From positions 1 to 64,000 of IMG/VR virus record IMGVR_UViG_3300009152_000030: a stretch of DNA of 64,000 nt. One strand, given 5' to 3'. Each line of letters opens with the position of its first letter. Within the stretch, counting starts at the first letter, position 1. Both the position numbers and the translations under genes were made by a program. The notes under the pieces are model-generated. The model saw only the letters and a program-made list of their open reading frames with translations, was not told the origin of the DNA and ran no database searches. Shown piece after piece: positions 41,034 through 57,165 of the stretch. This DNA comes from a virus.

Positions 41034-44000
41034 CTACTTCTTTGCAAGGTCGTTCGGGTTGATGATAATCATCGGACGATTGACCTTCTTGGCGTAGTTG
41101 ACACAGTTGGATGTGCCACTCGGAGAACCATCCCAGATTGCGACAACCGCCTCGCAGTTATCAACCATCCAGTAGTTCCGTGCGTGGAGACACTTCTCTT
41201 TGCCTGCAAGGTCGTAGCCTTTCTTATTGACAAGCACAACTTGATGAGCAAGAGCAAGCATCTTCTTGTAACGCATCTTAGCTTCGTCACCCTTGAAGTA
41301 ATCACCATGGTCGCTGCAAGGACGAGCCACGATGAACTTGAGGCCAAGCTTGTGAGCCTCACGTGCGGCATCAGTGTCAACGCCAAGAGCACCACCAGTA
41401 ACGACGATGATCTCACGAGTTGCACTGTACTTGGCAATGGCACGCTTTAATGCATCTGCGATTGCATTCTTTACAGCAACACGCAGAGGATGATTCTCGT
41501 CATAGCCGCCAATCTTTTCGGGGCGATGACCAGTGAATGCAATCCTGTAGGGCTTTGCTTCCACGGCAACAACAGGCACAGCAGGAGCAGGCTTGGCTTC
41601 AACAGCAGGAGCGTCAACCGGGACCCAATTGACATCTGCCATGTTCTTAGGCTGCCACTTGCCGTTGACCATTACAAGTTGTACAGGCTGTGCCGCAGTG
41701 TACGTGCCTTCAAGTACTTCACTGAAGATTTGAGTCTCAGACTCTTCCTCGTCACTGTCGTACTCGCTAGCATACTGCTCCAGCTCTTCAGCGCTGACTG
41801 GATTCTCAGAACCAAAGGCATCTTCAAAGTTGAAGTCTGCCATGCCTGCGCTCTCCAGCATCTTGTCGTAGTCGATATTCTCAGAGACAGAGATATCGAA
41901 GAACTCCTTCTCGGGAGGAGGCTCGGGCTTGACCGGCTCTTGACCCTTGAAGGTCAGCCAGACGAAGTTACGAGTGTAGGTCTTGCCGTTGGCACCATGA
42001 CCGTCACGCTTCTCCACTTCGCTTGCCTCAACGGTAGCACCGCTGAAGAAGTTGTTGAGAGTACCGTGGTAGCCCATCATGCCGGCAATCTGCCACTGAG
42101 TCTTGCCCTTGAAGGCACCGTTGTTCTCGAATGCCTTGCGCGTCTCGCTGGTCTTGCGGAAGACCAAGTAAGCAACTGCGGCGGCGCGATGGTCCTGGTC
42201 AGGGTTACCGCGCTGTCCACCGTATGCAAGCTGAATGCGGTTGTCGCTGAGGAGCTGCTGGATGTTGAGGCCAACAAGCGACTGAGGATCAACAGTCTTG
42301 CCATCCTTGCTCTCACGAATGAGGAAGGCGGCGCGAACGTCGGCAGCAAGAAGCTTATCCTGAGTCTTCTTCACGGCAGCATCCTCAAGGAACTTGCAGA
42401 GAACTTCTGCGTAGCCCTTGTAGTTACCGGTCGAGGCAAAGTACATCTTGCGGCTGTAACCACCGCTGGAGGTAAGCTCACCCTGCGCGTCGATGGCGTC
42501 AGAGTCGATGATCTTTGTCTTGTTGCCTTCTTCGTCATCAAGGAACTCGACCTTACCCTTGCCCATGGACAGAGTAATAGGCTTTTCCGCAGACGTACCG
42601 AGAGCGGACATCAGCTCAGAAAGCACGAACATTTCGTACTTGTACTCAGCCTTATCCTCGTAGACCTCTTCGAAGAGAGGCCAGAGATCCTCGTGACGTG
42701 CTGCGAAGGCTGCATGGATGGGCTTCTGAGCGTAAACCCGACGAAGGGTCTTGAGCTCTTCAGCGTTCATCATGTAGCGAACCTTGTCGATTTCCTCGTA
42801 ACGATGCTTCATTGCCTCAGGCACAGTCATCATGTGACCATTGTCCTGGCTGTAGCGATTGACCGCATGATACTTACGGAACATGAAGGAGCCGAAGGTC
42901 GTGAGATTGAACTCACCCTCGTATTGCTCCTGCTCATCCCGGTAGTGCTTGCTGATCAGCTCATCAAGCTCATGCGAGTGCTCTTCAAGGAACGCCTGAA
43001 GATTGGAGGTCAGGAGAGTAGCAGTCTGAGTGCTGTGACCCTCATCGATGAACGACTTGAGGTTCGAGGTCATCGTCTTCCAGTAGCGTGTGAAGCTGCG
43101 GATGATGGGATGCTCAACCTTGACAGACCGACCATCTGCCGTGACAACCGTCTGACGAAGGCTCTGGCAGATCTTAGCGGTCATCGGGATCTTGCCCTCT
43201 TCGTCCTTGAACAAGGCAGGAGCAATGATGTTCTCGCCCGTGATCTCGGAGATTTCTCCCGTGTAACGCACAGCAACAGGTGCAGTTACAAGCGAAAGAA
43301 GGCTGACACCAAGCCGCTTGCGCACAGGCTTAAGGGCCGTCATCTTGCTAGGCTTAGCATCGGGATTCTCACGCATCGCATTGCGGTCGTTGAGTACCCA
43401 GCTGACAGCAATCATCGTCATGATAGCGTCGATGTTGTGCCATGCACGCCAAGCGCCGGGGAAGTCAGTGCCGCTCTGAGCAGCATCGACCACCAGCGAG
43501 ATCTCACCTTCCATCATGCAAGCTGCAAGAAGGGCGGATGGAGTCTTGACTACCGACGGCAGAATGATCAGGTCAGCAAGCAGATAGCTGCCGAACATCT
43601 GAGCATTTGCCATTGCGCCAACGATGGGCATGAACTCGTTATCACCAGGAAGGTGAATCATGTCCCACTTCTCTTCAGCAGTCTTGTCGGCAACCGAAGG
43701 ATCTGCAGGCTGAGCCTTCTCAGCAAGGGCCGTAATGTTGTACTTGATCAAGCCAGAAGGCGAGACAGTCTCGACCGTCTTGACATCAAAGTACGACGAC
43801 AGCAGCTTGTGACCATTCGGAATGGTGTTCACAAGATCAAGCTTTTCAGGAAGCTTAGCAAGGAAGGTGTGTGCCTTCTCGTAAGTATCCTGGACCTGCT
43901 GAACGGTGAACTGGCTCAGCTTGTAGTTACGCAGGTTCATAGAACGCAGCGCAAGCAAGCCAAGCTTACCGCACAGGAAGAACGCCTTGTCGTCAGCGTC

Positions 44001-45392
44001 ACCGCCGTCCATGCTAACAAGGACAGCCTTCTGCATGATCTCCGTGCTGCCGAAGTATGCAGTAGCGTGCAGGAACATGTCGTCCTTAAGGACAACATAG
44101 ATAACCCGCACATCGACCTTAGCCGAAGTAGGCCAACGAGCCGCAGCGCCAAGGCTATCCCGATGGTTGACGGCAAGCTCCTTCTCGTTCTCACCCTTCA
44201 CATCATGGATGTTAAGAGCAGGAACGTTGAGGTTCTTCGCAGCTTCTGCCGTGATAGCAATTGCCGCAAATCCCGTCTTGGCAAGGATCTGTTCCGACTT
44301 GGCGTTGAACGCTTCCTCGATCTTTGCCTTGCGGTCAAGCTCAGCCATGATGAGAAGACGACGCTTCTTCAGGCCAGCGGTTTCGTTTGCAAAGGCACCC
44401 TGCTTCTCCTCATGGAGCCACAGGTCACGGAACATACGCCAGACAAGAGCGCGGGGATACGAGGTAAAGCCACAAGGGCCGTCCTTTGTAACCGCGTTGA
44501 TGCGAAGCTTGCTCTGCGTAACGTCTTCGCTGACACTGTTGACTAGAGTAGTCACAGTAGCAGGAATTGCGCCAGGGTGAACACCAAGGCTAAGAAGCAT
44601 CTTGGTGATCTTTGCCTTGAATGTTGAGGACGTTTCCGTTGCCTCAAGGACGTCGCCATCGAGACCCTTAAGGGCATTCTTGACGTAGTCATCCCAGTGC
44701 GAGATGTTCCAGTCAATCATCTCGTTGAGGATCGCATGGAACTTCGGGTCGTTGAGCACCTGACCAAACAGGGCGCTCAAGTTCTGGACGCCGAGAAGGA
44801 CACCAGGCTCAGACTTCATCTCACCAACGGTCGGCTGCACCATAAGCGCAACATCGGGAGAGAGATCAGGCTTGAGATCCTGCTTGCCTTCGGAGCTCAG
44901 CAGGAAGACATGGGGCGGAAGCCAAAGCTTGACCGCACCCATTGCGCCCTTATAGTACGCTTCGAGCTTAACCACACGGCGAACCTGCATGCCCTGCGTC
45001 ATGGGGCCAGGGGTGAGCTCTGCAGTGCCCATGTAGTGGACACCGTCCTGGATTGCCTTGTAGGCAGGATCCAAGTCAGCCATGTCTACAACCTTGCCAG
45101 TTGCAGATACGATGGCGCTGTAGGTGGCCGTCATCATGGAACGCGCATACTTGCGGCCCTTCTGAGCGGTCTTGCTGGTATACCCAACAGAACCCACAAG
45201 CTTTGCCTTCAGCGCCTTAGGCACCATCAGCGTCTCCATGCTGCTAACAGCAAAGAGGGCAACGTGACCGTCCGGGCATTTCTGCCCTTTCTCAACCACA
45301 GGGTGGTCGAGGAGGCTTTCAAAGCCCGGAAGATCGGAATAGGGGCTCTTAACCCCGGAATACTCGAGATGCTCTCGATAGCTACGGTACAT
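41034..45392 (-). CDS. 1,452-residue protein: RNA-polymerase-like motifs and C-terminal SLOG domain
   Basis: The start at 45392 has AAGGAGG five bases upstream; 15 codons before it an in-frame ATG (45437) opens a leader with no stop. Around residues 425-475 RWP..VDVRVIYVV and, about 30 residues later, SMDGGDADDKAFFL resemble the RNP...DVRV and SGGDLDGDxYFV blocks of two-barrel RNA polymerases (RDR/QDE-1, YonO). The third Asp of DxDGD is displaced, so activity is uncertain. The last 170 residues (FTGHRPEKIGGY, GGALGVDTDAAREAHKLG, IWDGSPSGT) are a SLOG-type nucleotide-binding domain. No close family is recognised for the rest. Confidence 0.7.
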   Translation of the reverse strand: MYRSYREHLEYSGVKSPYSDLPGFESLLDHPVVEKGQKCPDGHVALFAVSSMETLMVPKALKAKLVGSVGYTSKTAQKGRKYARSMMTATYSAIVSATGKVVDMADLDPAYKAIQDGVHYMGTAELTPGPMTQGMQVRRVVKLEAYYKGAMGAVKLWLPPHVFLLSSEGKQDLKPDLSPDVALMVQPTVGEMKSEPGVLLGVQNLSALFGQVLNDPKFHAILNEMIDWNISHWDDYVKNALKGLDGDVLEATETSSTFKAKITKMLLSLGVHPGAIPATVTTLVNSVSEDVTQSKLRINAVTKDGPCGFTSYPRALVWRMFRDLWLHEEKQGAFANETAGLKKRRLLIMAELDRKAKIEEAFNAKSEQILAKTGFAAIAITAEAAKNLNVPALNIHDVKGENEKELAVNHRDSLGAAARWPTSAKVDVRVIYVVLKDDMFLHATAYFGSTEIMQKAVLVSMDGGDADDKAFFLCGKLGLLALRSMNLRNYKLSQFTVQQVQDTYEKAHTFLAKLPEKLDLVNTIPNGHKLLSSYFDVKTVETVSPSGLIKYNITALAEKAQPADPSVADKTAEEKWDMIHLPGDNEFMPIVGAMANAQMFGSYLLADLIILPSVVKTPSALLAACMMEGEISLVVDAAQSGTDFPGAWRAWHNIDAIMTMIAVSWVLNDRNAMRENPDAKPSKMTALKPVRKRLGVSLLSLVTAPVAVRYTGEISEITGENIIAPALFKDEEGKIPMTAKICQSLRQTVVTADGRSVKVEHPIIRSFTRYWKTMTSNLKSFIDEGHSTQTATLLTSNLQAFLEEHSHELDELISKHYRDEQEQYEGEFNLTTFGSFMFRKYHAVNRYSQDNGHMMTVPEAMKHRYEEIDKVRYMMNAEELKTLRRVYAQKPIHAAFAARHEDLWPLFEEVYEDKAEYKYEMFVLSELMSALGTSAEKPITLSMGKGKVEFLDDEEGNKTKIIDSDAIDAQGELTSSGGYSRKMYFASTGNYKGYAEVLCKFLEDAAVKKTQDKLLAADVRAAFLIRESKDGKTVDPQSLVGLNIQQLLSDNRIQLAYGGQRGNPDQDHRAAAVAYLVFRKTSETRKAFENNGAFKGKTQWQIAGMMGYHGTLNNFFSGATVEASEVEKRDGHGANGKTYTRNFVWLTFKGQEPVKPEPPPEKEFFDISVSENIDYDKMLESAGMADFNFEDAFGSENPVSAEELEQYASEYDSDEEESETQIFSEVLEGTYTAAQPVQLVMVNGKWQPKNMADVNWVPVDAPAVEAKPAPAVPVVAVEAKPYRIAFTGHRPEKIGGYDENHPLRVAVKNAIADALKRAIAKYSATREIIVVTGGALGVDTDAAREAHKLGLKFIVARPCSDHGDYFKGDEAKMRYKKMLALAHQVVLVNKKGYDLAGKEKCLHARNYWMVDNCEAVVAIWDGSPSGTSNCVNYAKKVNRPMIIINPNDLAKK

Positions 45393-45442
45393 AGTACCCT
45401 CCTTGTCAGTAACCAAAATGGTTACGTTCTGTTTCATGTTTT

Positions 45443-47419
45443 CTACCATTCGCCCATATCCATTGTAACAACAGGAAGAGTCGGAGCAACTACTGATACT
45501 GTCTCCATCTTGAAGCCAGAGTCCCAACCCTCACGAGTTGATGTATGCTTTGAGTTGCAGTCTGTGTAGTTAAGCATTGCACGTTCTTCGGCAGTCATCA
45601 TCCGATGAGGATTAGCTTTTGCAATCTCAGGATGAACCAACATAAAGCCGCACTTGGTCTTCATCCAGTCGTAACCGAAGTCGAAAAAGAGCTTTATCGC
45701 CAGATCTAGTCCGGCTAATTGCTTCCTAGACGAACCCTTCTTGTTGTCCGATACATCCGTCTGCACCATGGACAAACGAAGATTCATGTCGATTTTATCG
45801 AACATGTGAACCTGAGCTCGCAACTCAGAGTTTGCCATTGGTAGTTTTGTCTTCAGCGAGTAGACAGCACGCGAGGCTTTGCTTTCTTGAAGCTCTGCAT
45901 GGTACCGAGCCTTGAATTCCGGGAAAGACAGACCAGCAAGGTGCGGAAGCATCCCATATTCTGTTGTTTCCCACTTTTGACGATACTCGTCTTCGAAGTA
46001 CCCCCAATCCAAGTCCGGACGGTTGCAGTCAGTCCAAAGGGTACCACTCTGCTCATTCGCAAGATTATGCAAGTCATAAGCATACATACCATTACATTCA
46101 CTAGCTTTGAAAAGCTGCAGATACCGTAGCATATGATAATATGCTTGGCTCGTGCTGTCCACATTGGTCAGATAGAACCTTTGGTACCTTTTGTTCTGAG
46201 GTACAGCCTGTTCTACAAAGCCAGTTGCGGTTACCACAACACGATTAACGAGTTCGACTCTAAATACACCCTTGTCGCACAGGTATGTATTCCGAACTGC
46301 TCTTCCACAGGCAAGGTTTTGAATGCAAGTCTTACCAGTTTTTGACCAAGTAAGAACTTCCTCTCTTTTGCCAAAGTGAGCAATCTCGCCACTTTCGTAC
46401 ACGTCAGTGGTTTTTGCAAACTCTGTAATGCGTTCGATTTCCGATACCCATTCGTTATAGGTCATCTTCCGCATCTTGTACCAGGACGTAAGGATCATTC
46501 TGATCCACTTCTCTTCAGGGCCATTGGGGTTGAGTTTGGCCTCTCCAAACACCTGCTTGGCAAGTTGCTCTTCTTGGCCATCCCAGCGGTTTTCATTGCC
46601 AAAGCCCCAGTCAGAGACACCACCGCCAGCAGTCAGGACAAAGCCAAACGAGAACTTATTCCCGTTGCCATCGGTGCCCGTCTTGGCATCTACTGTTTTA
46701 TCAACAATATAGCCGTGGTATTGTCCAGACTTCATCTGCTGTTGATAGGTGCCACCACCAACGCAGAAGTGCCCCTTGTAGCGTGAATTGATGCTCTTGC
46801 ATTCATCCCACGCCTGCTGGGGATCAACCCAGCGGAAGTAATACGTCTCCTTGTTGAAGAGAGCCGTTACTTCACAGGTCTTGAGGGATGCCTCGCCGAT
46901 GACCGCGCCCAGGAACTTGACAGACAAGCTATTCACAAGCTCAACTGTGCTAGTGTACCGATTGCGAACAACGTGCCATTCGGCAGCTGACCATGTTTCA
47001 ATACAATTCTTCTTCTTGGCCAGCTTGGCAATGTCCTGGAAGAAGGTCTCCCAGGTAGGCTCATGAGTAACCTCCTTGAACCAGGCCATCATTTCCTTAT
47101 TGGCAAGGAGGATACTGGCAAACTTGTTGAATGCCGCAACATTCATGACCTTTACCTTGATCACCTTGGTCCGGCCCGTCGGCGGCGACCACTTAACCTG
47201 ACGCTCAGAGCCAAAGCACCGAATGCGGTACATGTCAACTCCCTGCTCCTTTAGAGCAATGATGCGCTTACGCACACTCATCAGGTTTGACAGCGAGAAC
47301 CCAGGCATTTCAGGCTGGATCTCATTGGCAATATATTGCCGCTGTTCGAGACGCATTTGCTTGGCCTTCATAAGGGCCTCCTTCTGTTCGGTGGTCATGT
47401 TTTTGGTCATCTTACTCAT
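45443..47419 (-). CDS. 658-residue protein with novel INSRY-FCVGGGT domain
   Basis: The ATG at 47419 overlaps the upstream stop (ATGA) and follows AAGGGGG. A second in-frame ATG at 47371 has its own AAGGAGG. Around residue 210 a block WDECKSINSRYKGHFCVGG then GTYQQ, and later GFGNENR, recur in the protein at 53285-55444. The HCVG-like Cys-Val-Gly loop faintly recalls PcfJ-like domains. The remainder is unrecognised, without membrane segments. Confidence 0.7.
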   Translation of the reverse strand: MSKMTKNMTTEQKEALMKAKQMRLEQRQYIANEIQPEMPGFSLSNLMSVRKRIIALKEQGVDMYRIRCFGSERQVKWSPPTGRTKVIKVKVMNVAAFNKFASILLANKEMMAWFKEVTHEPTWETFFQDIAKLAKKKNCIETWSAAEWHVVRNRYTSTVELVNSLSVKFLGAVIGEASLKTCEVTALFNKETYYFRWVDPQQAWDECKSINSRYKGHFCVGGGTYQQQMKSGQYHGYIVDKTVDAKTGTDGNGNKFSFGFVLTAGGGVSDWGFGNENRWDGQEEQLAKQVFGEAKLNPNGPEEKWIRMILTSWYKMRKMTYNEWVSEIERITEFAKTTDVYESGEIAHFGKREEVLTWSKTGKTCIQNLACGRAVRNTYLCDKGVFRVELVNRVVVTATGFVEQAVPQNKRYQRFYLTNVDSTSQAYYHMLRYLQLFKASECNGMYAYDLHNLANEQSGTLWTDCNRPDLDWGYFEDEYRQKWETTEYGMLPHLAGLSFPEFKARYHAELQESKASRAVYSLKTKLPMANSELRAQVHMFDKIDMNLRLSMVQTDVSDNKKGSSRKQLAGLDLAIKLFFDFGYDWMKTKCGFMLVHPEIAKANPHRMMTAEERAMLNYTDCNSKHTSTREGWDSGFKMETVSVVAPTLPVVTMDMGEW

Positions 47420-49854
47420 TGATTTACCCCCTTTGCCACTTTGGCACAGTTAACAATTCCATGATTAATCTTCCGGCTAACTTGGATGTCATTGCGCAGT
47501 TCGGTCTTCTTACCGATCACTACGTCAATGAACAAGTCAGCAGCCTGTTCAATCGTGAGCGCTGTAGGCGCAGGATTGACCGCAGGAAGCAACTCGAACA
47601 GTCGCAGAAGCAAGGAAGGACGCGGCTCTGCGTCGGCCATAGGCACAGTTGCAACCACAGGCTTGCGGAACTTGGCCACAGCCTTGAGGTCAGACATGGT
47701 CACCTGGGCATGCTCACGTGCAGGCGCAGCAGGTCGACCGAACTTCACCACAGCGATCTCCTTCCGGAGGTTGTGAGGAAGCGAGACGAACGAACAGCCG
47801 GTGCCCAGACGGGGCTTGGCGGGTGCGTTGGCGGGTGCGTTGACGGCAGGCTTGACCTCAGCCTTGGGAGCGGCCTCAGGCTTGGTCATGACGACCATAA
47901 CCTTGGCAGCAGCAGGCTTAGCAGTCGGCGCAACCGTGGTGACCGTCGTGATGCCAGCCTTGGCCTTGATCACGGCCTTGACCTTTGCCTTTGCCTTCGC
48001 AGCCTTGGCCTTGCGAGTTGCCGCCTTGGCGCTCTTGGCAGCGCGAGCCTCCGAGAGCTCCTGTGCCTTGCGTGCAGCGATTGCAGCGCGGATTGCCGTG
48101 ACCTTGGCCTTGACGGCCTTCTTCTCGGCGTCCACCTTGGCGAGGACTGCAGCCTGTGCAGCCTTTACCTCGGCTTCGACAGCAAGACGCGCAGCCTTGG
48201 CAGTGGCACTCTGGTTGGCGATCTGGGCAGGGTTCTGATCAGCCCAGCGCACCCCGACCTCATTGACGTTCCAAAAACGGCAGAAGGAGCTGAGCCGTGC
48301 GGCAGCAGCACGACGAGCGGTGCGAACGGTCTTGTCGAGGGTCTTGACCCCCGTGTTCGCCGAACGAGGCCCGAATGCTGCCTTGACGAGGCGGGTGGCA
48401 TCCAAGTAGTCGTTGTTACGGACGACCTTGACCTTTGCGGCGCTCTTGACCACAGGCTTTGCCACGAACGGCTTGGCCTGTGCACGAAGGATGGGAAGCT
48501 CGTTGCGCTTGGCCTTAGCCTTGCGCTGAGCAACCTCGATCTTCACCGCAGTCTCGGGGCGAGTGTAGCGGTTGGCGCGGTTTGCCTTCTTGGCGAGCAG
48601 CTTCCGAAGGGCAGTGCCAGGTCGATTGTTCGCCGGCCCCGTTGCTTTCTCTTTCTGGCGCTGACCAATGAGGCCAATCGACCAGCCGCCGACGTGACCG
48701 CTCTTGCGGCCACCCCCAACCTTGTAGCTCTCGGTGTAGATGTATTGGACCTCGGGGCGGGGGACCGACACGCCGTGGAAGCGGATGCCGGCACGCTTGC
48801 GCCAGAGGTGAAGGAGGCGACGGCGAGACCGGCGGGACATACGAGACTGACGCATGACGAGATCCTTTGGAGGACGGGGGGATTTGGACTTGTTACGCAT
48901 GACGATATCCTTGGGTGGACGGGACTTCTTGTTCTTCATGGGGCGCTCCGTGTAGTGCGGGTTTCCGGTGTCGCTGATGCCACACATTGCGGCAATCTTG
49001 ACATCGTGGGTAAGCATGCGGATGAGTGCGTCGAGCGCGATCTTCATTGCCATTGTAGTCTCCAGTGGCGGTGGGGGTGTTGGTTCAGGTTGGTTCACAA
49101 TCTCACTCATCTTGTCCTCCTCTAGCACATAGACACAACCAGGACCACCTTTTTTGGCATCCCAGTCAATAAGGCGCACATGATCCCAAGAGCATTGCCC
49201 CTGAGGAATCTTTGAACGACGAGTATGACCAACAATAGCAAGCCCGTGCTTACCCTTGTAATCTTTGGCCCAGAAGTTATCAGGGTCAGTGTTATCAACA
49301 AGCTCGATCTGGGCTGCAGTCGGCTTACCTTTGACAAACCTAGGAGGCAATTTACCAGCTGGAAGTTTGGCATGGACAGCCGTCCAGGTTGTGTCCTTGA
49401 CCCATAGAGGCCGAGAGCGCAACCAGACCATATCGTCCTCCGTAAGTAGAGCACGAAGCTTGCACCACTCATTCCAGATGCGTACATAGTCTTCGTCTGC
49501 CAGGTTATAGTGCAGGCTCCAAGCCTTTGTCAATTCTTCCTGGCTATTGCCAAAGAAGAGAGGATACAGCTCATGGTTGCCCAAGATGAGCTCCGAGCCA
49601 GAGGCACGAATGATGTCAAGGCAATCCTTGGCACCCTGTGCGCCACCTTCCCCATCGAAGATATCTCCGAGGAAGATAATGTCTCTGCCGTTTGCCATCT
49701 CAATGGCAGAAGTGACGAGAGAGGGACGTGCGTGAATATCGCCAACGAAAACCTTTTCCATTTTAATCTCCTTGGTAGGCCTATCAATCTTCATATCATT
49801 CATTGGAACAACCTTTGTAATAGTACAAATAGATACATTCATTTGCTTATCCAT
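47416..49854 (-). CDS. metallophosphatase fused to histone H1-like basic tail
   Basis: From the ATG at 49761 (AAGGAG box) the first 200 residues are a calcineurin-like phosphatase: FVGDIHARP (GDxH), FLGDIFD (GDxxD), LGNHE (GNHE), VHAKLP, VGHTRRS. The remaining 550 residues are basic: Arg-rich, then a long Lys/Ala tract (AKAATRKAKAAKAKAKVKAV) like bacterial histone H1 homologues. Upstream in-frame ATGs at 49854 and 49818 and internal ones (for example after GAGGAGGACAAG) have their own ribosome-binding sites. Possibly two proteins made from one frame. DNA or RNA binding is inferred. Confidence 0.75.
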   Translation of the reverse strand: MDKQMNVSICTITKVVPMNDMKIDRPTKEIKMEKVFVGDIHARPSLVTSAIEMANGRDIIFLGDIFDGEGGAQGAKDCLDIIRASGSELILGNHELYPLFFGNSQEELTKAWSLHYNLADEDYVRIWNEWCKLRALLTEDDMVWLRSRPLWVKDTTWTAVHAKLPAGKLPPRFVKGKPTAAQIELVDNTDPDNFWAKDYKGKHGLAIVGHTRRSKIPQGQCSWDHVRLIDWDAKKGGPGCVYVLEEDKMSEIVNQPEPTPPPPLETTMAMKIALDALIRMLTHDVKIAAMCGISDTGNPHYTERPMKNKKSRPPKDIVMRNKSKSPRPPKDLVMRQSRMSRRSRRRLLHLWRKRAGIRFHGVSVPRPEVQYIYTESYKVGGGRKSGHVGGWSIGLIGQRQKEKATGPANNRPGTALRKLLAKKANRANRYTRPETAVKIEVAQRKAKAKRNELPILRAQAKPFVAKPVVKSAAKVKVVRNNDYLDATRLVKAAFGPRSANTGVKTLDKTVRTARRAAAARLSSFCRFWNVNEVGVRWADQNPAQIANQSATAKAARLAVEAEVKAAQAAVLAKVDAEKKAVKAKVTAIRAAIAARKAQELSEARAAKSAKAATRKAKAAKAKAKVKAVIKAKAGITTVTTVAPTAKPAAAKVMVVMTKPEAAPKAEVKPAVNAPANAPAKPRLGTGCSFVSLPHNLRKEIAVVKFGRPAAPAREHAQVTMSDLKAVAKFRKPVVATVPMADAEPRPSLLLRLFELLPAVNPAPTALTIEQAADLFIDVVIGKKTELRNDIQVSRKINHGIVNCAKVAKGVNQ

Positions 49855-49871
49855 GACGTTCTCCCTAGGCA

Positions 49872-50042
49872 CTAGTGGATACGCCGGCCAATGCGGCCGA
49901 TGCGGGAGTGACGGAAACGGCGAGCCACTGCCTTCTTGACAGCAGCCTTTTCAATAGCCTTGGCCTCAGCGTTAGCTGCAACCTTGGCGGTCATCTCCCC
50001 CTTAATAAGGAGGAAAATTAGGACAAACAGGACGACAATCAT
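49872..50042 (-). CDS. 56-residue membrane peptide with basic tail
   Basis: ATG at 50042, one base after the upstream stop, with GGGAGAAG before it. Reads MIVVLFVLIFLLIKGEMTAK, a membrane helix, then an Ala/Lys/Arg-rich tail ending RRIH. A second in-frame ATG (codon 17) has AAGGGGGAG directly before it. Its TAG overlaps the region of the next start. Confidence 0.6.
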   Translation of the reverse strand: MIVVLFVLIFLLIKGEMTAKVAANAEAKAIEKAAVKKAVARRFRHSRIGRIGRRIH

Positions 50043-50043
50043 G

Positions 50044-51195
50044 TTACTTCTCCCAGTTGCTGATAGTCTCCTGCCCGTATTTAAGCAGGAACTGTTGATA
50101 AAGGTCCTTGTACCATTCCATGTTTTCCTTGGCGTAAGCCAGGTTTACCGTATCCTTGCTGCGGTCCAAGCTACCCCAGCAGTCAGTTTGGCCAATGTAC
50201 AAGGCATCATTGTACTTGACTTGAAAGTCTTCAGCATCACCTGTGCCAAGGGCTTGGCGCTGAGGGCTTTCCGCATAAGATACGAAGCCAATCACTTCAT
50301 CGCCGGCCATCAAAGGCCCACCAGAGTCACCATGGTCAGGAGAAACTTCAAGGCTGAGGCTGGCAGCACAGATAAAGCGTTGGTTGCTAGCGCCTGCAAT
50401 GTACCTCTTGTAGGTATCAACAAGATTCTTGAAGATAACCTCGGGGCTTTTCAGACTTACATCCTCAAGTGCTTTTCTGGCATCAATGAATGCCCATCTC
50501 ATGTCATTCTGCTCTTTCATGCTAGGCGTACCCTTCTTCATGTGGTCAAAGACCTGCTCAAAAGGCACATAACCCCACATGTCTGTGGTCTTACCCCACC
50601 AACGGAAGTCAGTGCTGCACTCAAGACCAATCTCATAGAGATCTTCCTTGATTTCGTTAGGATAATGGTCAGCCGGCACAACGATATCGCCAGCGTTTTC
50701 ACGGTAACCGTTACGTGTGCAGTGCTCTGCCGTGTAGATCTTACCTTTCCACTTCCATGCAGTGCAGTTCCCGCTCTCATCAAGGGGGCCTTCATTTTCC
50801 CTGGTGTTGACAGGACCAATTCCAGGGTGGATGTTGTTCTCTGCCCGGTACTTCTCTTCCAGGAATTCTTCCACTTCCTGAACAACCTCGTAATAGTCGC
50901 TGTTAGCAACCCACTCTGCCTGACGGATTTCCTCCTTCCGTGCCGCAGCAGCTTCTTCCTGGCGAAGGCGGGTGTTATTACCCGTCATGGTCACAAAGAT
51001 ACCAGCAAAGGCTGCAAAGATTGCAACCATTGCCAGCACAAAGAGGATGTTCTCGCGGCGGTCTGCCTTCTTCATCTTGTCCTCCCTCTCACGGTACGCC
51101 TTAAGCTCGGCCTGTTGCATTTCTTCCCAGTTGTCCATGACCTTCTCCTTGTTTGTTGAGTTAGCAGCAATGTCTAGAACAGTAACGTTATTCAT
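50044..51195 (-). CDS. membrane-anchored trypsin-like serine protease
   Basis: 383 residues from 51195 (364 from the ATG at 51138, which has AAGGAG). A membrane helix at residues 50-70 follows a charged N-terminus, suggesting an exported catalytic domain. S1-family marks: CTAWKWKGKIYTAEHC (His about 158, with the flanking disulfide Cys), STDFRWWG (candidate Asp about 196), FICAAS, and HGDSGGPLM (Ser about 291). Paralogue of the next gene. Overlaps it by eight bases, so co-translated. Trypsin-like proteases are rare in phages. Confidence 0.85.
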   Translation of the reverse strand: MNNVTVLDIAANSTNKEKVMDNWEEMQQAELKAYREREDKMKKADRRENILFVLAMVAIFAAFAGIFVTMTGNNTRLRQEEAAAARKEEIRQAEWVANSDYYEVVQEVEEFLEEKYRAENNIHPGIGPVNTRENEGPLDESGNCTAWKWKGKIYTAEHCTRNGYRENAGDIVVPADHYPNEIKEDLYEIGLECSTDFRWWGKTTDMWGYVPFEQVFDHMKKGTPSMKEQNDMRWAFIDARKALEDVSLKSPEVIFKNLVDTYKRYIAGASNQRFICAASLSLEVSPDHGDSGGPLMAGDEVIGFVSYAESPQRQALGTGDAEDFQVKYNDALYIGQTDCWGSLDRSKDTVNLAYAKENMEWYKDLYQQFLLKYGQETISNWEK

Positions 51196-52531
51196 GAGTC
51201 CACCCCAGCATTTCAATGATGTCAAAGACATTCGTGTAATCGCTAAAGATATCCGAGTAGCTTGACGCCATTTCATCAATGAACGGCGATGCAACCGGCT
51301 TATTGTCAACCATAGCAAAGCAAGAGACCTGATAGTTGCTATGAGCTTCCGGATAGAAGTCATCAAACATCTGGTTGTCGGTCCGAACGAAAAACGAGAC
51401 ACTACCAATGACTTCGTCACCAAGCATGATGGGGCCACCAGAGTCACCCTTCTTGATGCTATCTTCCGCCACAGAAGAAGCACAGAGATACTCTTGGCTT
51501 GTGTAGTGCTCTTTGATGTACTTCAACTGGTTGTAGAATTTGTTGAACGCTGCATGTGCTTTTTCTTTTGCTTTCTTCGTATTATCGCTATTAGTCTTCA
51601 TGCTGTTCTCTTCGATTGTGTACTTGTAATCGTTAAGAGCGGCAATAGCCTTATACTTAGAGTCAATAAGCTCTTGTTGCATTTCGTAAGGAGCACCAAG
51701 ATAGTTTCTTGTCTTCTTGAAGATCTGCTCCATAGGAATAGTTACCCACTTATTGGTGGTTGTGCCCCACCAGCGGATATCAGGGCTGCACTCTGTACCT
51801 TCCTTGTAGAAGTCACCAGAGATAGTGTTATCGGCTGTTGACTGCTGGACGCGGTCTGTGTTGCCGTGCTTTTCCAGGTAGTCATTGCAGTGCTGGATGG
51901 TGTAGGTCTTACCGTTCCATTTCCATGCGCTGCAGGTGCCGTACAGAACTTCACCGTCCTTGTATACAGGAGACTCAATTTTGCCATAGGCCTTAGCAGT
52001 ATTATCAACCTGCTCATAATTAGTAACAGCATTAGCGGTCGACTGCGCATTTTCAATCTCAGGCTTAGCATCGGTACCGCAAGCCGTAGTGATTACGAGG
52101 AGAAGGAAGGTTGCAATCTTTGCCATCATTTCCGCATAGTTAGCTTTCACAAGAGCCTCGTTAACCTTCAGATTATGGAAGGCGTTGGTTGCAAGTGCAA
52201 TGCTGCGCACATCGTCATGGTACTCAACGTGGATGAGGATATCAATGGCAGTAAATGCCAAGGGGGCAAGTGCGAGAGTGCACACGACCATATCCTGGAA
52301 CGTAGCCACAAGGGCGTAGGGAATGAAGAGAGCTGCAGTGCAGACAATGCTGAACGCAAGCCCAATGGACCTCTTGCTAACGACAAGCATGACGGACTCC
52401 TTGTTGGCAACAAACTTGTTCATGACAGACCCCTTCCAGACAGCGGTGATGATAGCCAGGATGGCAAAAATGACGAATGCAATTGACATAGCAGACTCCT
52501 TGTTGACGACAGAATTGTCGATGGTGTTCAT
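51188..52531 (-). CDS. trypsin-like serine protease, lipoprotein-like, with multiple in-frame starts
   Basis: 447 residues from 52531. Catalytic marks: CSAWKWNGKTYTIQHC (His about 214), CSPDIRWWG (Asp about 251), YLCASS and KKGDSGGPIM (Ser about 364). In-frame ATGs at 52489, 52423 and 52390 each have a strong ribosome-binding site six bases upstream; the parts between encode a 22-residue membrane helix, an 11-residue leader and then two or three helices. At residue 136 MAKIATFLLLVITTACGTDA looks like a complete lipoprotein signal (lipobox TTAC). The frame may therefore be a nested set of products or a polyprotein. Confidence 0.85.
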   Translation of the reverse strand: MNTIDNSVVNKESAMSIAFVIFAILAIITAVWKGSVMNKFVANKESVMLVVSKRSIGLAFSIVCTAALFIPYALVATFQDMVVCTLALAPLAFTAIDILIHVEYHDDVRSIALATNAFHNLKVNEALVKANYAEMMAKIATFLLLVITTACGTDAKPEIENAQSTANAVTNYEQVDNTAKAYGKIESPVYKDGEVLYGTCSAWKWNGKTYTIQHCNDYLEKHGNTDRVQQSTADNTISGDFYKEGTECSPDIRWWGTTTNKWVTIPMEQIFKKTRNYLGAPYEMQQELIDSKYKAIAALNDYKYTIEENSMKTNSDNTKKAKEKAHAAFNKFYNQLKYIKEHYTSQEYLCASSVAEDSIKKGDSGGPIMLGDEVIGSVSFFVRTDNQMFDDFYPEAHSNYQVSCFAMVDNKPVASPFIDEMASSYSDIFSDYTNVFDIIEMLGWTHE

Positions 52532-53280
52532 TAGTACACCTTTACGATTTCGCAGGCGAAAAGGTCGATAAAGTCAAAGTTGTCATCCTTTGTGCCAATG
52601 GAACGGTTGCGAGCGAGGCTATAGTCGTCGCAAAGACCAAAGCGCTGAGCGTACCCTTCGAACAGGTAGTCACCGACGCGAGAACAAGCAGGACAACCGC
52701 CTTCCCAGTCAAGTCCAGTCGGCTTCCAGTCGCGAAAAGGAGGAGACTTTCTGATTTCTCGTGCAAGCATAATTTCAGGCTTGTAGATTTCAACTGCATA
52801 GTTGACCTCAACAATCCACTCATGCTTGATACCTTCAGAGCAGATCAGGCCGTTGTCGTTGTCCATCATAAGCTCAGCAAGCTCACGAAAGATAACAGGG
52901 TCATTGCAACGATCAAGATTGAACTTAATCGGGAATCCTTCCTTCATGACTTTGATAGTGGAGATCGGAACGTCCGCGATTACCTGTACAGCACTCGAAG
53001 AGTGCTTCTTGGTAATGTATGCAGCCCAGAAAGCATCCAGATTGGCATTTGCCGGAACAGCCCAAGTGCCCATCACTTTCTTTCCTTCCGGGTGAAGGTG
53101 ATTGGTGACTTCCATTGCGGGAACGCCATCCTTAGCAATGATGTCGCCAAAGTTAGGCGCAGTCCAGTGAATAACACGCATAGTCTTCATGGTTTCCTCC
53201 ATCTTAGCCGAAACGGCGATTTCTTCAGTAATCTTATTCATGACGTTCACCTTGTTGGTGTTGAGGGTGTTGATTTTCAT
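52531..53280 (-). CDS. hypothetical protein with leader
   Basis: 249 residues from 53280; in-frame ATGs at 53241 (AAGGTG box) and 53190 (GGAGG box) may be the main starts. Core begins MKTMRVIHWTAPNFGD. A CPAC pair (EGGCPACSRVGDY) near the C-terminus. No family. Its TAA overlaps the protease start (TAATG), with an AAAGGTG box inside the last codons. Confidence 0.65.
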   Translation of the reverse strand: MKINTLNTNKVNVMNKITEEIAVSAKMEETMKTMRVIHWTAPNFGDIIAKDGVPAMEVTNHLHPEGKKVMGTWAVPANANLDAFWAAYITKKHSSSAVQVIADVPISTIKVMKEGFPIKFNLDRCNDPVIFRELAELMMDNDNGLICSEGIKHEWIVEVNYAVEIYKPEIMLAREIRKSPPFRDWKPTGLDWEGGCPACSRVGDYLFEGYAQRFGLCDDYSLARNRSIGTKDDNFDFIDLFACEIVKVY

Positions 53281-53284
53281 TGTA

Positions 53285-55444
53285 TTACCAGACATCGTTG
53301 TAGCTATCGGCAGCAAGCTTAGCCTTGATCTGCGCCACAACATGGTTGATATTGAATTCACGCTGGATAAACCAGGTGTTAGAGATTTTCATGGCCTCAA
53401 TCTGACCCGGGGTCTTCTTGGTCTCCGAGCTTTCGCCGTCACCAAACATACCAATCAGAATAGGACGGTGCTTGCTACTGCGGTTGTTATCGCCCATACC
53501 GAAGTCAACAACACCAGCACTGTTCGTAAGGATAACGCCAAAGTTATCCCATTCGCCGTTGATCTGGATGTCTGCAATCCAGGGGATATTCGTACCATTG
53601 AGGAACTTCTCCTGGTAGTAACCATGGCTCTGCTGAGTGCCATGACCGGTGCAGAACTTACCCGTGTACTTGCTGTTGATCTGCTGAGACTCATTCCACA
53701 TACCAGCGGCATCCGTACGACGAATACGAAGAACCTGATCGTAGCCAGCAGCAAGAATCTTCTCAACCTGCTCAGTGTCAGCTACGTCACAGCTCTTGAA
53801 TTCTTTGCTACCAAACTTGAAGCCAACAACAACGTCAGTCGTAAGCTTGCAGATTGCAACTTCCTCAAGAGCAAAGATAGGCATCAAGTCTTCCTTGAGC
53901 TGCTTGACCTTGTTATAGCGCTGAGCATAAGTCTTCCACTGATTAGCCTTCCAGAGGTTTTTCTCAGCATTCATTTCTTTGCTGCACCAGAAGTTTTCCT
54001 CAGTCTTCATTGCATGCATTTCGTCAGCAAAAGCAGCGTCTTTGCTCATAGCAACGAGCAAACCACCTGTTGCCGCGTCATTAAGCGGCAAGCACCAGCG
54101 GCTAAAGAATTGAATGGTCTTCTTCTCAATGAGCAACTTTGCCGCTTGCCACTCAGCCTTCGTGAGAATACGATAGGCCTGCCAGTTGTAACCATGCTGC
54201 CAATTTGTTTGGCAGATAAAGTGGTAGTATTCATTTTCGCTATTTCTCATGGCTTTTTCGAGAGCGCGAGCAAATTCTGAGAACTTGATGGCCAAATTGT
54301 TATAGGCCGCAGCATTACGATTGCTTTCGTCAACGTTAGCCAGCATTAGCCAGTACGAACGGATGCCTTGAATACTAGCATTCTTGTAGAAGAAACTGTA
54401 GTCCGCAGACTCTTGAAGATTCTTTTCAGCCTTGATAAAGGACTCAAAAGTAATCTCTTCCTTGAGTTGCGTATCAAACATAGTCCAGAGGGCATTAATA
54501 TCGGTAGCGTTTTCGATCGATTTGATAAAGTCCTGGTACTTCATCGTCTCTGCGCTCTGCTTACAGCCAAGTTCTGCTTGCATCTCAAGATTTTTGCGCT
54601 GTCTTTCTGCGATTTCAAGGGAAAGCCGGGCATTGCGTGCAATTCGCTGAGCTTCGCGCTCTTCCTCCTGGCGGCACCACGCCTCATGCTCAGCAGCTTC
54701 ACGCTCAAGACGAGCAATGCGCTCTGCCTGATCCAACGCCTGCTGACGCGCATATGCAATGTTACGCTCACGACGCTCCATCATGTAGAAGGCGTCATGC
54801 ATGCGCTGCTGCTCACTCTCAGCAGCCATCTTGCGCACTTGCTTAGCAAGCTTATCAGTCTTCTGCTTGTTCTCATACCAGAACATAGCAACAACTGCAG
54901 CAATCATTGCGACAACCATGGCAATCAACGCGATAACAATCATGATCCTATCCTGAGTCATGTTTGCACTAGCAATGGCCAACACAGGTACAATACTAAA
55001 CATCTTATTCTCCTCGTTCTTCATGACATCCTCTTCATTAACGTCGGAATTGACGTTGTTATTGACATCCTTCTTAACCCAAGCCTGCTGTGCAGCAAAG
55101 GCCATGATAGCCTCCATGCTAGCAGTGCTCATCACAGGCATCTCGCTGTCATCCTCGTACAGGGCCTCAATCTCAGCCTCAAACTGCGCATCTTCGGTAA
55201 CATCACTGTACACCGGGTGATTATTATTGAGGTCAACCTCATACTCATTCGTATACTGAATCTTATTCGACATGGCGTCCACCTCGTTATCAGCCTGGTA
55301 GCTGGGGTTATTGCTATTGAAAAGAACGTTGATCAGGCTAGTCATGACAGTCACCTTGTTGTTGCTATGAGTGTTATTATTCATAGTCTTGTTATTGATG
55401 ATGGTGTTGGTGATGGTGGTAGGGGTTTGTGCGAGCGTGCACAT
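53285..55444 (-). CDS. membrane coiled-coil protein with shared C-terminal domain
   Basis: 719 residues from 55444 (TAAGGA box). Further in-frame ATGs at 55345 (AAGGTG), 55273 (GAGGTG), 55024 (AGAGGA) and 55003 (GAGGAG) follow. After the last comes a membrane helix (IVIALIAMVVAMIAAVVAMF), then a long Ala/Glu/Arg/Gln coiled coil and a C-terminal domain with INSKYTGKFCTGHGT and GMGDNNR, matching the protein at 45443. First gene of the leftward high-GC operon beside the divergent promoter region. Confidence 0.7.
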   Translation of the reverse strand: MCTLAQTPTTITNTIINNKTMNNNTHSNNKVTVMTSLINVLFNSNNPSYQADNEVDAMSNKIQYTNEYEVDLNNNHPVYSDVTEDAQFEAEIEALYEDDSEMPVMSTASMEAIMAFAAQQAWVKKDVNNNVNSDVNEEDVMKNEENKMFSIVPVLAIASANMTQDRIMIVIALIAMVVAMIAAVVAMFWYENKQKTDKLAKQVRKMAAESEQQRMHDAFYMMERRERNIAYARQQALDQAERIARLEREAAEHEAWCRQEEEREAQRIARNARLSLEIAERQRKNLEMQAELGCKQSAETMKYQDFIKSIENATDINALWTMFDTQLKEEITFESFIKAEKNLQESADYSFFYKNASIQGIRSYWLMLANVDESNRNAAAYNNLAIKFSEFARALEKAMRNSENEYYHFICQTNWQHGYNWQAYRILTKAEWQAAKLLIEKKTIQFFSRWCLPLNDAATGGLLVAMSKDAAFADEMHAMKTEENFWCSKEMNAEKNLWKANQWKTYAQRYNKVKQLKEDLMPIFALEEVAICKLTTDVVVGFKFGSKEFKSCDVADTEQVEKILAAGYDQVLRIRRTDAAGMWNESQQINSKYTGKFCTGHGTQQSHGYYQEKFLNGTNIPWIADIQINGEWDNFGVILTNSAGVVDFGMGDNNRSSKHRPILIGMFGDGESSETKKTPGQIEAMKISNTWFIQREFNINHVVAQIKAKLAADSYNDVW

Positions 55445-55637
55445 GGCGTTCCTTACTGCCCTTGTGGGGGCGATGTCCAAAGCTAGCGGAATCGCTAGCA
55501 GTTGGTGAGAGTTGGAAAGACCCTCATCCCTTAGTACATAGTCTTAAAAGGGGGTGGGCTAAAAACGAATAGGGTATGGGTAAGTATAGGGGCCCAGGAG
55601 TATAAGTACCCGCTCTTTTCCGAAAAAAAAATATATA

Positions 55638-55645
55638 TATAAATA
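55638..55645 (+). promoter_or_regulatory. T4-type late promoter motif TATAAATA
   Basis: Exact TATAAATA within an AT-rich tract, about 195 bases before the first rightward gene. Also compatible with a -10 element. Confidence 0.45.
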
Positions 55646-55701
55646 GAGGCTGTACCTATACCTTAATACTTGGCCTTTCACTCTTTTCTATAAAAAATAT
55701 A

Positions 55702-55709
55702 TATAAATA
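55702..55709 (+). promoter_or_regulatory. second TATAAATA motif
   Basis: Exact TATAAATA, 130 bases before the first rightward start, in a tract of repeated TATATAAA. Confidence 0.45.
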
Positions 55710-55839
55710 TATAAAAATATATATAAAGGCCTTTTGCCCTAAGCCTATGACCCTTTCCCCCTCACGTAGTTCTTTTTCCCATGTATAGCGTTTCTTATGG
55801 TTTCTTATGGTATCAAGTTAGTAAAGTTTAAACTTTAGT

Positions 55840-57165
55840 TTGATTACTAGTAAGAAGAATTCTGTTTTGGCTCATTACAATGATATAAACAAGGCTAATA
55901 GGAATAAACCTAGATCCTCACACGACAACAGTGCAGGGCGTGGAGCCGATAATCCCTATAAGAATGCACCGCGTTTAGAGAACCCTACTTATACTGGTAC
56001 TATGACTGGACAAGTTATAGATCCTTATACATTGTCTAGTAAGCTATCTAATAGATTGGAGTTCTCCTCAAAGGAGGAAGGGATGCCTTTTGATTTAAAT
56101 GCATTAGAGGAAAATGTAGACATTAGTTCTAGTGCTAAGGGACTACCTACTAGGCAAATGGAAATATCTGAGGATAAAGCCTTTGATAAGACCTCACCCC
56201 TCCTGAAAGACTCTAGTATGATTTCAGGTAATAGAAATGCTAATGGTCTCGGCGGCGTGGAGGCTAATACCCAAGTTCTACTTGACAGAGTAGGTGAGCT
56301 TTTAGATAACGATGAAACACTATTGGAAAGAGTTGAGCCCCTTGATAATACTTCTTCTACTAGTATTAGCTTACGTGATGCTTTTCAAAGTGCCTTAGAT
56401 AGTAGTGATCTTGGCACTGTAGATGCTGCTAACTTTTTTTCTAATAGTAGTTTAGGGGCGTTTCTTGGTAGTGACCCTGATTTATATAGAGACTTACATA
56501 TAACACCTCAGAGTGCTGCTAGAATGAGGTCGCATCTTGCCGCTGTTAAGCATGGAACTTATGCTAGTGTACCCTTAATCTGTAAAGGCTATGAGAGTTG
56601 TCCAATCCGTAGTTCTTGTTGGTTTGCTGTTAAGAGAGATAACGGTAGTGTTGATCTTGCTGCTAGTAAATTCCCCTTGCTTCAACCTTGCCCCGTAGAA
56701 GCAAGTATTCTTCAGGTTAAGGTTAAGCAATACTGTAGTGAAAACTTTCATAATTTAAATTACATTACTCCTACTATTGTTAGCTTAGCTACTAAGTTGG
56801 CTGAGTTAGATATCTATGAGATTCGAGTTAATATGCTATTAAGTCAAGGTGATAGCCTTGGTGAAGGTCGAGACCTAATGCAGGAAGCCGTACTAAGCAA
56901 TGATATGCATGGTAATCCTGTTAAGACTGCGATGAAGGAACATCCTGCCTTTGCATTGAAAGAGCGTTTTCAGAAAATGCGTAGTCAACTAATGAAGGAG
57001 CTATTAAGTACCCCAGAAGCCAAGCTAAATGCCAGAGCAAAGATAGAAGCTACTAAGGCTGAGAGCGTTAGTTCAACTATGACAAAAATGTCTGCTGCAT
57101 TAAGCAAGATTAATAGTTTAATAAGGGATAATACTGTAGATCCAATGGACTTTGACGATGACTAA
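55840..57165 (+). CDS. 4-Cys phage protein, first rightward gene
   Basis: 441 residues. The first codon is TTG (55840); no ATG or clear ribosome-binding site is found before residue 52, so the start is uncertain. The N-terminal half is low-complexity Ser/Asn/Asp. The C-terminal half has ICKGYESCPIRSSCW and PCPVEA, a CxxxxxCPxxxxC...CP pattern seen in phage proteins near packaging genes, then helices. Terminase small subunit-like or adaptor is a guess. Ten bases before the next gene. Confidence 0.65.
   Translation: MITSKKNSVLAHYNDINKANRNKPRSSHDNSAGRGADNPYKNAPRLENPTYTGTMTGQVIDPYTLSSKLSNRLEFSSKEEGMPFDLNALEENVDISSSAKGLPTRQMEISEDKAFDKTSPLLKDSSMISGNRNANGLGGVEANTQVLLDRVGELLDNDETLLERVEPLDNTSSTSISLRDAFQSALDSSDLGTVDAANFFSNSSLGAFLGSDPDLYRDLHITPQSAARMRSHLAAVKHGTYASVPLICKGYESCPIRSSCWFAVKRDNGSVDLAASKFPLLQPCPVEASILQVKVKQYCSENFHNLNYITPTIVSLATKLAELDIYEIRVNMLLSQGDSLGEGRDLMQEAVLSNDMHGNPVKTAMKEHPAFALKERFQKMRSQLMKELLSTPEAKLNARAKIEATKAESVSSTMTKMSAALSKINSLIRDNTVDPMDFDDD

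Follow-up and report, generated by a model that had tools for sequence, protein, structure and literature searches.

What does it mean when nearly every long gene of a phage locus opens with a series of ATG codons in one frame, each preceded by its own ribosome-binding site and with no stop codon between them? Such an arrangement is seen in an uncultured bacterial virus, the IMG/VR virus record IMGVR_UViG_3300009152_000030, of whose 174,117 bases the first 64 kb form the stretch analysed here (the window). The block under study consists of seven long minus-strand genes between 41 and 55.5 kb, namely g731 (53285..55444), g276 (52531..53280), g447 (51188..52531), g479 (50044..51195), g818 (47416..49854), g658 (45443..47419) and g1497 (41034..45449), and the remaining long genes of the 174-kb virus, 121 in number, served as the comparison set. 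The reading that we favour, at slightly better than even confidence, is that of a mosaic locus whose modules are fused or coupled and would each keep a start of their own, with nested products as the outcome.

All fourteen ATG codons enumerated in a preliminary description of the region were found to lie on the minus strand, in frame with an upstream start and without an intervening stop. The strong Shine-Dalgarno (SD) sequence then attributed to all of them is present, as a match of 6–7 nt, at 55345, 55273, 53241, 52489, 52390, 51138, 49761, 47371 and 45392; the match is of 5 nt at 55003 and 53190 and of just 4 nt at 49854, 52423 and 55024, the scan being scored against the standard anti-SD, which may not be that of the host. 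The enumeration was also incomplete, lacking 49110 (AGGAGG), 51075 and 55105 (both GGAGG) and the weaker 49053, 48900 and 48855. The seven genes together have 9 ATG codons with an SD match of at least 6 nt among their first 60 codons; codon shuffling predicts 0.2 and synonymous shuffling 3.8, and a count of 9 was reached in none of 300 shuffles, codon or synonymous alike. The shuffled-codon control, proposed earlier as a possible refutation, thus gives far fewer in-frame SD-ATG pairs than are observed, and second in-frame ATG codons with their own, correctly spaced SD occur beyond chance. The excess is confined to the beginnings of genes, being absent from the same seven genes beyond codon 180, and the first 60 codons of the comparison set hold a single such ATG (1.7 expected by codon shuffling). 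A strong-SD start with an open in-frame ATG upstream is found in 6 of the 7 block genes, which bears out the initial impression that nearly every long gene is so built, versus 4 of 51 elsewhere (Fisher P 3e-5), or 3 of 51 when the upstream ATG is limited to 35 codons; in the seventh block gene the strong-SD start, 52531, is itself such an upstream start.

The stretches between the upstream ATG and the SD-ATG, hereafter leaders, were compared with those of two close relatives, IMGVR_UViG_3300042868_005761 (L3) and 3300024346_000106 (L4), whose DNA is 79–96% identical to the window where alignable, and of the more distant G007. Over the 564 leader codons of these four genomes there are 0 stops in frame 0 and 57 and 45 in the other frames, although the zero is partly a matter of definition, as leaders are delimited by their openness; the two other frames upstream of SD starts mostly close within about 10 codons. 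Six of the genes are preceded by another gene, and five of these have a leader ATG that overlaps its stop or lies next to it: that of g447 (52531) sits on the g276 stop (TAATG), that of g479 (51195) overlaps the g447 stop (ATGAATAA), that of g658 (47419) the g818 stop (ATGA) and that of g1497 (45449) the g658 stop (ATGGTAG), whereas that of g276 (53280; TAATACAATG) begins 7 nt past the first base of the g731 stop codon. Stop-start junctions are present at the same five genes in L3 and L4, and G007 has TAATG. The exception is g818, which starts 18 bases after a 56-aa gene and has its own GGGAG. Since the leader ATG lies at the preceding stop and an SD-ATG follows downstream, the usual arrangement would therefore be a coupled start and then, 13–19 codons on and in the same frame, an independent SD start. 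Several leader ATGs carry an SD of their own. The overlaps with preceding stops lend direct comparative support to the start-to-start coupling that had been named as one possible meaning of the chains.

The start sites are conserved among relatives, with the exception of 47371. Leader insertions and deletions between the window and L3 or L4 come in multiples of three, and the leaders of g731 and g479 change freely while keeping their frame (the g479 leader differs by 6 bases). At 55273, 51138 and 49761 the codons differ between relatives and SD-likeness is retained; at the first of these (55271..55273) the window has GAGGTGGACGCCATG and the relatives GCGGAGGATGCCATG, so that the amino acids differ. 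The start AAGGTGACTGTCATG at 55343..55345, which follows a 33-codon open leader, keeps its AAGGTGA in L3 and L4. By contrast, 47371, originally counted as a second start, lies behind a leader with 6 synonymous versus 1 non-synonymous changes, and its SD is weakened in both L3 and L4 (AAAGAGG, AAGGAAG). As this leader evolves as coding sequence and the SD is weakened in both relatives, 47371 was dropped as a second start within the close group, and the real start of g658 is probably the upstream ATG. A direct view of how a chain may be made comes from an extra 184-aa gene of L3, which begins at an ENVM start and ends before g818: the window and L4 are without this gene, and its start signal sits there in frame upstream of the g818 start. 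A chain of starts is thus the direct result when a module between two start signals is lost or gained.

Further comparative evidence stems from distant relatives (G005/G004, G007 and G003/G002), found via terminase scans, whose terminase is 82–91% identical to that of the window's virus, whereas their locus is only 20–50% identical and organised differently. Here open frames extend over 3767 codons in G005/G004, 2190 codons in G007 and 2267 codons in G003/G002. The 3767-codon frame comprises two trypsin-like proteases, membrane segments, basic regions, g658-like and g1497-like parts and, at its end, HIRAN; in G007 the protease gene stands apart from a frame with SLOG and HIRAN; in G003/G002 about 11 separately terminated small open reading frames (ORFs) precede a frame with DUF4326 and SLOG. 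Several unrelated domains in one polypeptide are thus seen in the relatives only (trypsin-like plus HIRAN, SLOG plus HIRAN, and DUF4326 plus SLOG, respectively). Assembly error is an unlikely cause of the fusions, as G004 and G005, and likewise G002 and G003, are identical over the stretch in contigs of different samples, and stop-codon recoding need not be invoked, because the standard code already leaves these frames open.

These fused frames retain start signals at their joints. The G005 frame contains 6 ATG codons with an SD match of at least 6 nt (1.4 by codon shuffling) and that of G007 contains 5 (again 1.4), both exceeding synonymous shuffles (P 0.010 and P 0.025). In G005 the SD-ATGs at codons 491, 1496 and 2278 match the window's starts of the g447 protease module, g658 and g1497, extrapolated pairwise alignments placing the first two Met residues in the same column as those of the window; the SD-ATGs at codon 404 of G007 and codon 500 of G003 also match gene starts of the window. 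One such joint precedes the g1497 module, which is about 20–24% identical between the window and the distant relatives. Its SD-ATG (45390..45392 in the window) keeps AAGGAG, 6 nt and ATG in four divergent lineages, inside fused frames in three of them, AAG GAG standing at equal distance amid differing residues: AAG GAG GGT ACT ATG in the window, AAG GAG AAG CCC ATG in G005, AAG GAG GTC AAG ATG in G007 and AAG GAG AAC AAG ATG in G003. Homology reaches upstream of this joint in G005 and G007, and in both the joint is therefore internal to a single uninterrupted coding region. The site of AAGGAGTCCGTCATG (52388..52390) is likewise retained deep within the 3767-codon frame. Directly before the G005 ATG that matches 52489, there is an in-frame TAG, so that this ATG alone is the true start there; stops between leader and main start, which had been named as evidence against the chains, thus occur in a relative at one site, and the leader is not universal. 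The fusion of small genes, another of the meanings first considered, is nevertheless directly supported, as relatives fuse the same genes and keep the SD-ATG at the joints. A membrane-like segment follows 8 of the 25 ATGs with an SD of at least 6 nt, versus 39 of 392 other Met codons.

Taken together, the starts suggest one message read from several internal sites. The tailed-phage locus would then be a mosaic whose modules are membrane segments, trypsin-like proteases, a phosphoesterase, basic regions and the large g1497 module with SLOG, each keeping its own ribosome-binding site and ATG, the stops that would close the preceding stretch being absent in that frame. In the window, a ribosome finishing one gene would restart at the stop-overlapping ATG and run through the open leader of 13–31 codons into the body, and another would load at the inner SD-ATG, giving the same body with different N-termini; nested N-terminal isoforms, also envisaged at the outset, would follow if both starts are used. 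In the fused relatives, loading at the joint SD-ATGs would yield products with one common C-terminus, which may stay uncut or may be cut further by the embedded proteases. We infer the use of both starts in vivo, an early timing of the locus and protease action on the products. A bolder version, speculative and on balance doubtful, holds that giant multi-domain polyproteins, with trypsin-like proteases embedded in them, may be the form in which a tailed DNA phage expresses a portion of its genome, that internal ribosome-binding sites at the joints may set module dose and give nested products of common C-terminus, and that the window may represent a split form feeding one frame by coupled and independent starts.

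The simplest competing explanation would be one start per gene, the SD-ATG, with the open leader serving as an untranslated, unstructured, A/C-rich landing stretch for ribosomes that is open by chance. Most leaders are A-rich, those of g731 and g479 are among several that change much at amino-acid positions, and a stop stands right before the 52489-matching site of G005, all of which speaks for this explanation; however, it does not sit well with one open frame beside two stop-rich ones, with 6 of 7 block genes against 4 of 51 elsewhere, with indels in multiples of three or with leader ATGs that overlap the previous stop and in several cases have their own SD, and it leaves the SD-ATGs within fused frames unexplained, so that we consider it unlikely. 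Decidedly unlikely, in our view, is that stop-codon loss fused genes or modules and the old SD-ATGs persist as relics without function: the 184-aa gene of L3, absent in the window and L4 with its SD-ATG left in frame before the next gene, does offer such a direct route to a chain, but the SDs persist at joints between lineages only 20–50% identical in protein, and joint SDs exceed the synonymous-shuffle expectation. The single-start and relic explanations may each hold at individual sites. Mosaicism with retained, working starts has points against it as well. As the window, L3 and L4 are closely related, there are only about four independent lineages, and over short times an unused start retained after a fusion would look much alike; the pN/pS values of all leaders (0.32–0.55, from few sites) are not clearly different from those of the gene bodies (0.35–0.38); 47371 looks like plain coding sequence; and in the G003 frame the count of ATGs with an SD of at least 6 nt, 3 versus 0.9, is not significant (P 0.075).

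Two further explanations concern the coding sequence itself. The preliminary description had pointed out that leaders end in a Lys-Glu or Lys-Val motif; this is mainly a by-product of an SD lying six bases before ATG. The converse, that K-(E/V)-x-x-M is a protein feature such as a site at which the locus's trypsin-like proteases cut, with the SD match incidental, could appeal to the two intact-triad proteases of the block, to the two in the fused G005 frame and to the recurrence of the motif at joints. It is nonetheless very improbable, given that shuffles which preserve the protein give far fewer SDs, that SD-likeness holds for the K-E version (AAGGAG) and the K-V version (AAGGTGA) alike and that at 55273 the residues change from EVDA to AEDA with the SD retained. 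Chance alone, in GC-rich genes with K/E-rich coding sequence, would be favoured by a third-position GC of 0.54–0.63 in the block versus mostly 0.21–0.5 left of 35 kb, as AAG and GAG are then preferred, and it accounts for 47371; set against the 0.2 expected and 9 observed under composition-keeping codon shuffles, it is refuted in general and scarcely credible beyond single sites.

In-frame internal initiation is well known in phages, as in gene 4A/4B of T7 and S107/S105 of lambda, where two in-frame starts with their own SDs give N-terminal isoforms. The block resembles these systems in having putative in-frame starts that each carry an SD, and differs in that single genes are concerned in T7 and lambda, whereas here it is nearly every gene, with chains of up to four starts that carry on within the giant fused frames of relatives. 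Coupling of translation through overlapping stop and start codons is equally familiar, and the TAATG, ATGA and ATGAATAA overlaps between consecutive block genes are of this kind, with the difference that a second SD-ATG follows 13–19 codons later in the same frame. Each of the two phenomena is, then, already known. In RNA-virus replicase polyproteins, membrane segments and chymotrypsin-fold proteases likewise occur in one long frame, a likeness shared with the frames described here; the present case concerns a tailed phage with a DNA genome that encodes terminase, portal and sheath, has several internal bacterial ribosome-binding sites, and its processing is putative, with two proteases of intact catalytic residues in the G005 frame. 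NADAR, too, occurs in RNA-virus replicase polyproteins (PMC9503650). In the polyvalent proteins of phages and conjugative elements, disparate domains and embedded peptidases share one long chain, which the authors who describe them liken to viral polyproteins (PMC5512222). The long chain of several disparate domains with embedded peptidases is the common trait; trypsin-like peptidases go unmentioned in that article, and the passages considered here show no internal starts at module joints (PMC5512222). Pfam gave no hit to the polyvalent hallmark domains (ArdC-N and the listed metallopeptidases) in the proteins scanned here. For a whole block in which internal initiation is combined with stop-start coupling, and which extends into giant fused frames that have starts at their joints, no description was found in the open-licence full texts searched. 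Gene finders choose one start per frame, and a block of this kind would accordingly be annotated as few long proteins with internal products missed. The genome series moreover constitutes a natural experiment on gene fusion that keeps start signals, from the small genes of G003 via the coupled open leaders of the window to the 3767-codon frame of G005. If it is true that the embedded proteases cut the products, RNA-virus polyproteins would have in this locus a counterpart among DNA phages.

As to the individual genes, g731 encodes 719 aa from the leader ATG, with a transmembrane (TM) segment, a coiled part and a C-terminal domain. Its starts are 55444 (TAAGGA), 55345 (AAGGTGA), 55273 and 55003, and its leader, MCTLAQ...NNKVTVM, is shared as MCTLAQ by L3, L4 and G007. 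The C-terminal part (53285–54187) is paralogous to part of g658 (45443–47371), at about 26% identity (E 3e-14). In g276 the SD-ATGs are 53241 (AAGGTGA) and 53190 (GGAGG). TM segments and a trypsin-like protease with the triad residues present make up g447, whose SD-ATGs are 52489 (NKESAM) and 52390 (NKESVM), with a weak one at 52423; g479 has a TM segment and the second trypsin-like protease, with SD-ATG 51138 and a further GGAGG-ATG at 51075. The two adjacent proteases (50044–52489) share the signature ECSxDxRWWG, have membrane segments at their N-termini and intact triad motifs, and form an unusual phage cargo whose homologues are fused in G005; His, Asp and Ser triad motifs could be aligned in five trypsin-like domains. 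Between g479 and g818 lies the small minus-strand gene (49872..50042) of 56 aa, absent from the preliminary description, with one TM-like segment and a basic tail.

In g818, which starts at 49854 (GGGAG) and has a 31-codon leader before SD-ATG 49761, a calcineurin-like phosphoesterase is followed by SD-ATG 49110 (AGGAGG) and a basic region. Within g818 (48830–48945, minus strand) there are also in-frame PRPPKD(I/L)VM repeats, each ending in a start-like AAGGAT-NNCGTC-ATG, and the unit varies among relatives. A structure model of g658 reached a pLDDT of 46 and was confident near the N-terminus only. The large module of g1497, preceded by SD-ATG 45392 (AAGGAGG), ends in a C-terminal YpsA-type SLOG domain and shows invariant R-x-P-T and (D/E)G-x-D-x-D-D-like motifs (41034–45392, minus strand; L062:10101-14558, L064:5845-11163, L066:10729-16026). 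Its identification as a two-barrel RNA polymerase, based on motif likeness only, was not confirmed, the AlphaFold model (pLDDT 35) being unusable and no PDB sequence match being found.

The small ORFs of G003/G002 (L066:2500-7200, corresponding to 25.5–30.2 kb of G003) encode 59–120 aa, several of membrane type, with strong SDs and mostly 100–200 bases apart; an Rfam search of the stretch in G003 gave no match. Neither DNA nor protein searches found isolate relatives for the region, prophage relatives in bacterial genomes were not found, and the terminase of the virus had four matches among phage records, with only 27–31% identity. No further lineages emerged from profile scans with A1, A2 and A5; it was the terminase scans that yielded the informative relatives. 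Across the virus group the terminase is 82–96% identical (L009:5107-7245), and the locus 41034–55480 is 20–50% identical or rearranged among distant members; judging by these identities, it is a block of very fast evolution.

Further along the record there are tailed-phage genes for terminase, portal, major head protein and tail sheath. The minus-strand block reaches leftwards to about 41 kb from an AT-rich divergent gap at 55.5 kb; its G+C content is 45–57% versus 34–44% in the left part up to 34 kb. Very long antisense ORFs lie opposite g1497 (41490–44546, plus strand, 1018 aa) and g818 (47419–49125, plus strand, 568 aa); they are probably a product of codon bias rather than genes. The AT-rich divergent intergenic region (55481..55839) has the minus-strand block on its left and a plus-strand block on its right, the first gene of which (55840–57165) probably starts at TTG: relatives conserve the peptide LAHYNDINKAN... 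at its N-terminus, yet no in-frame ATG stands before it.

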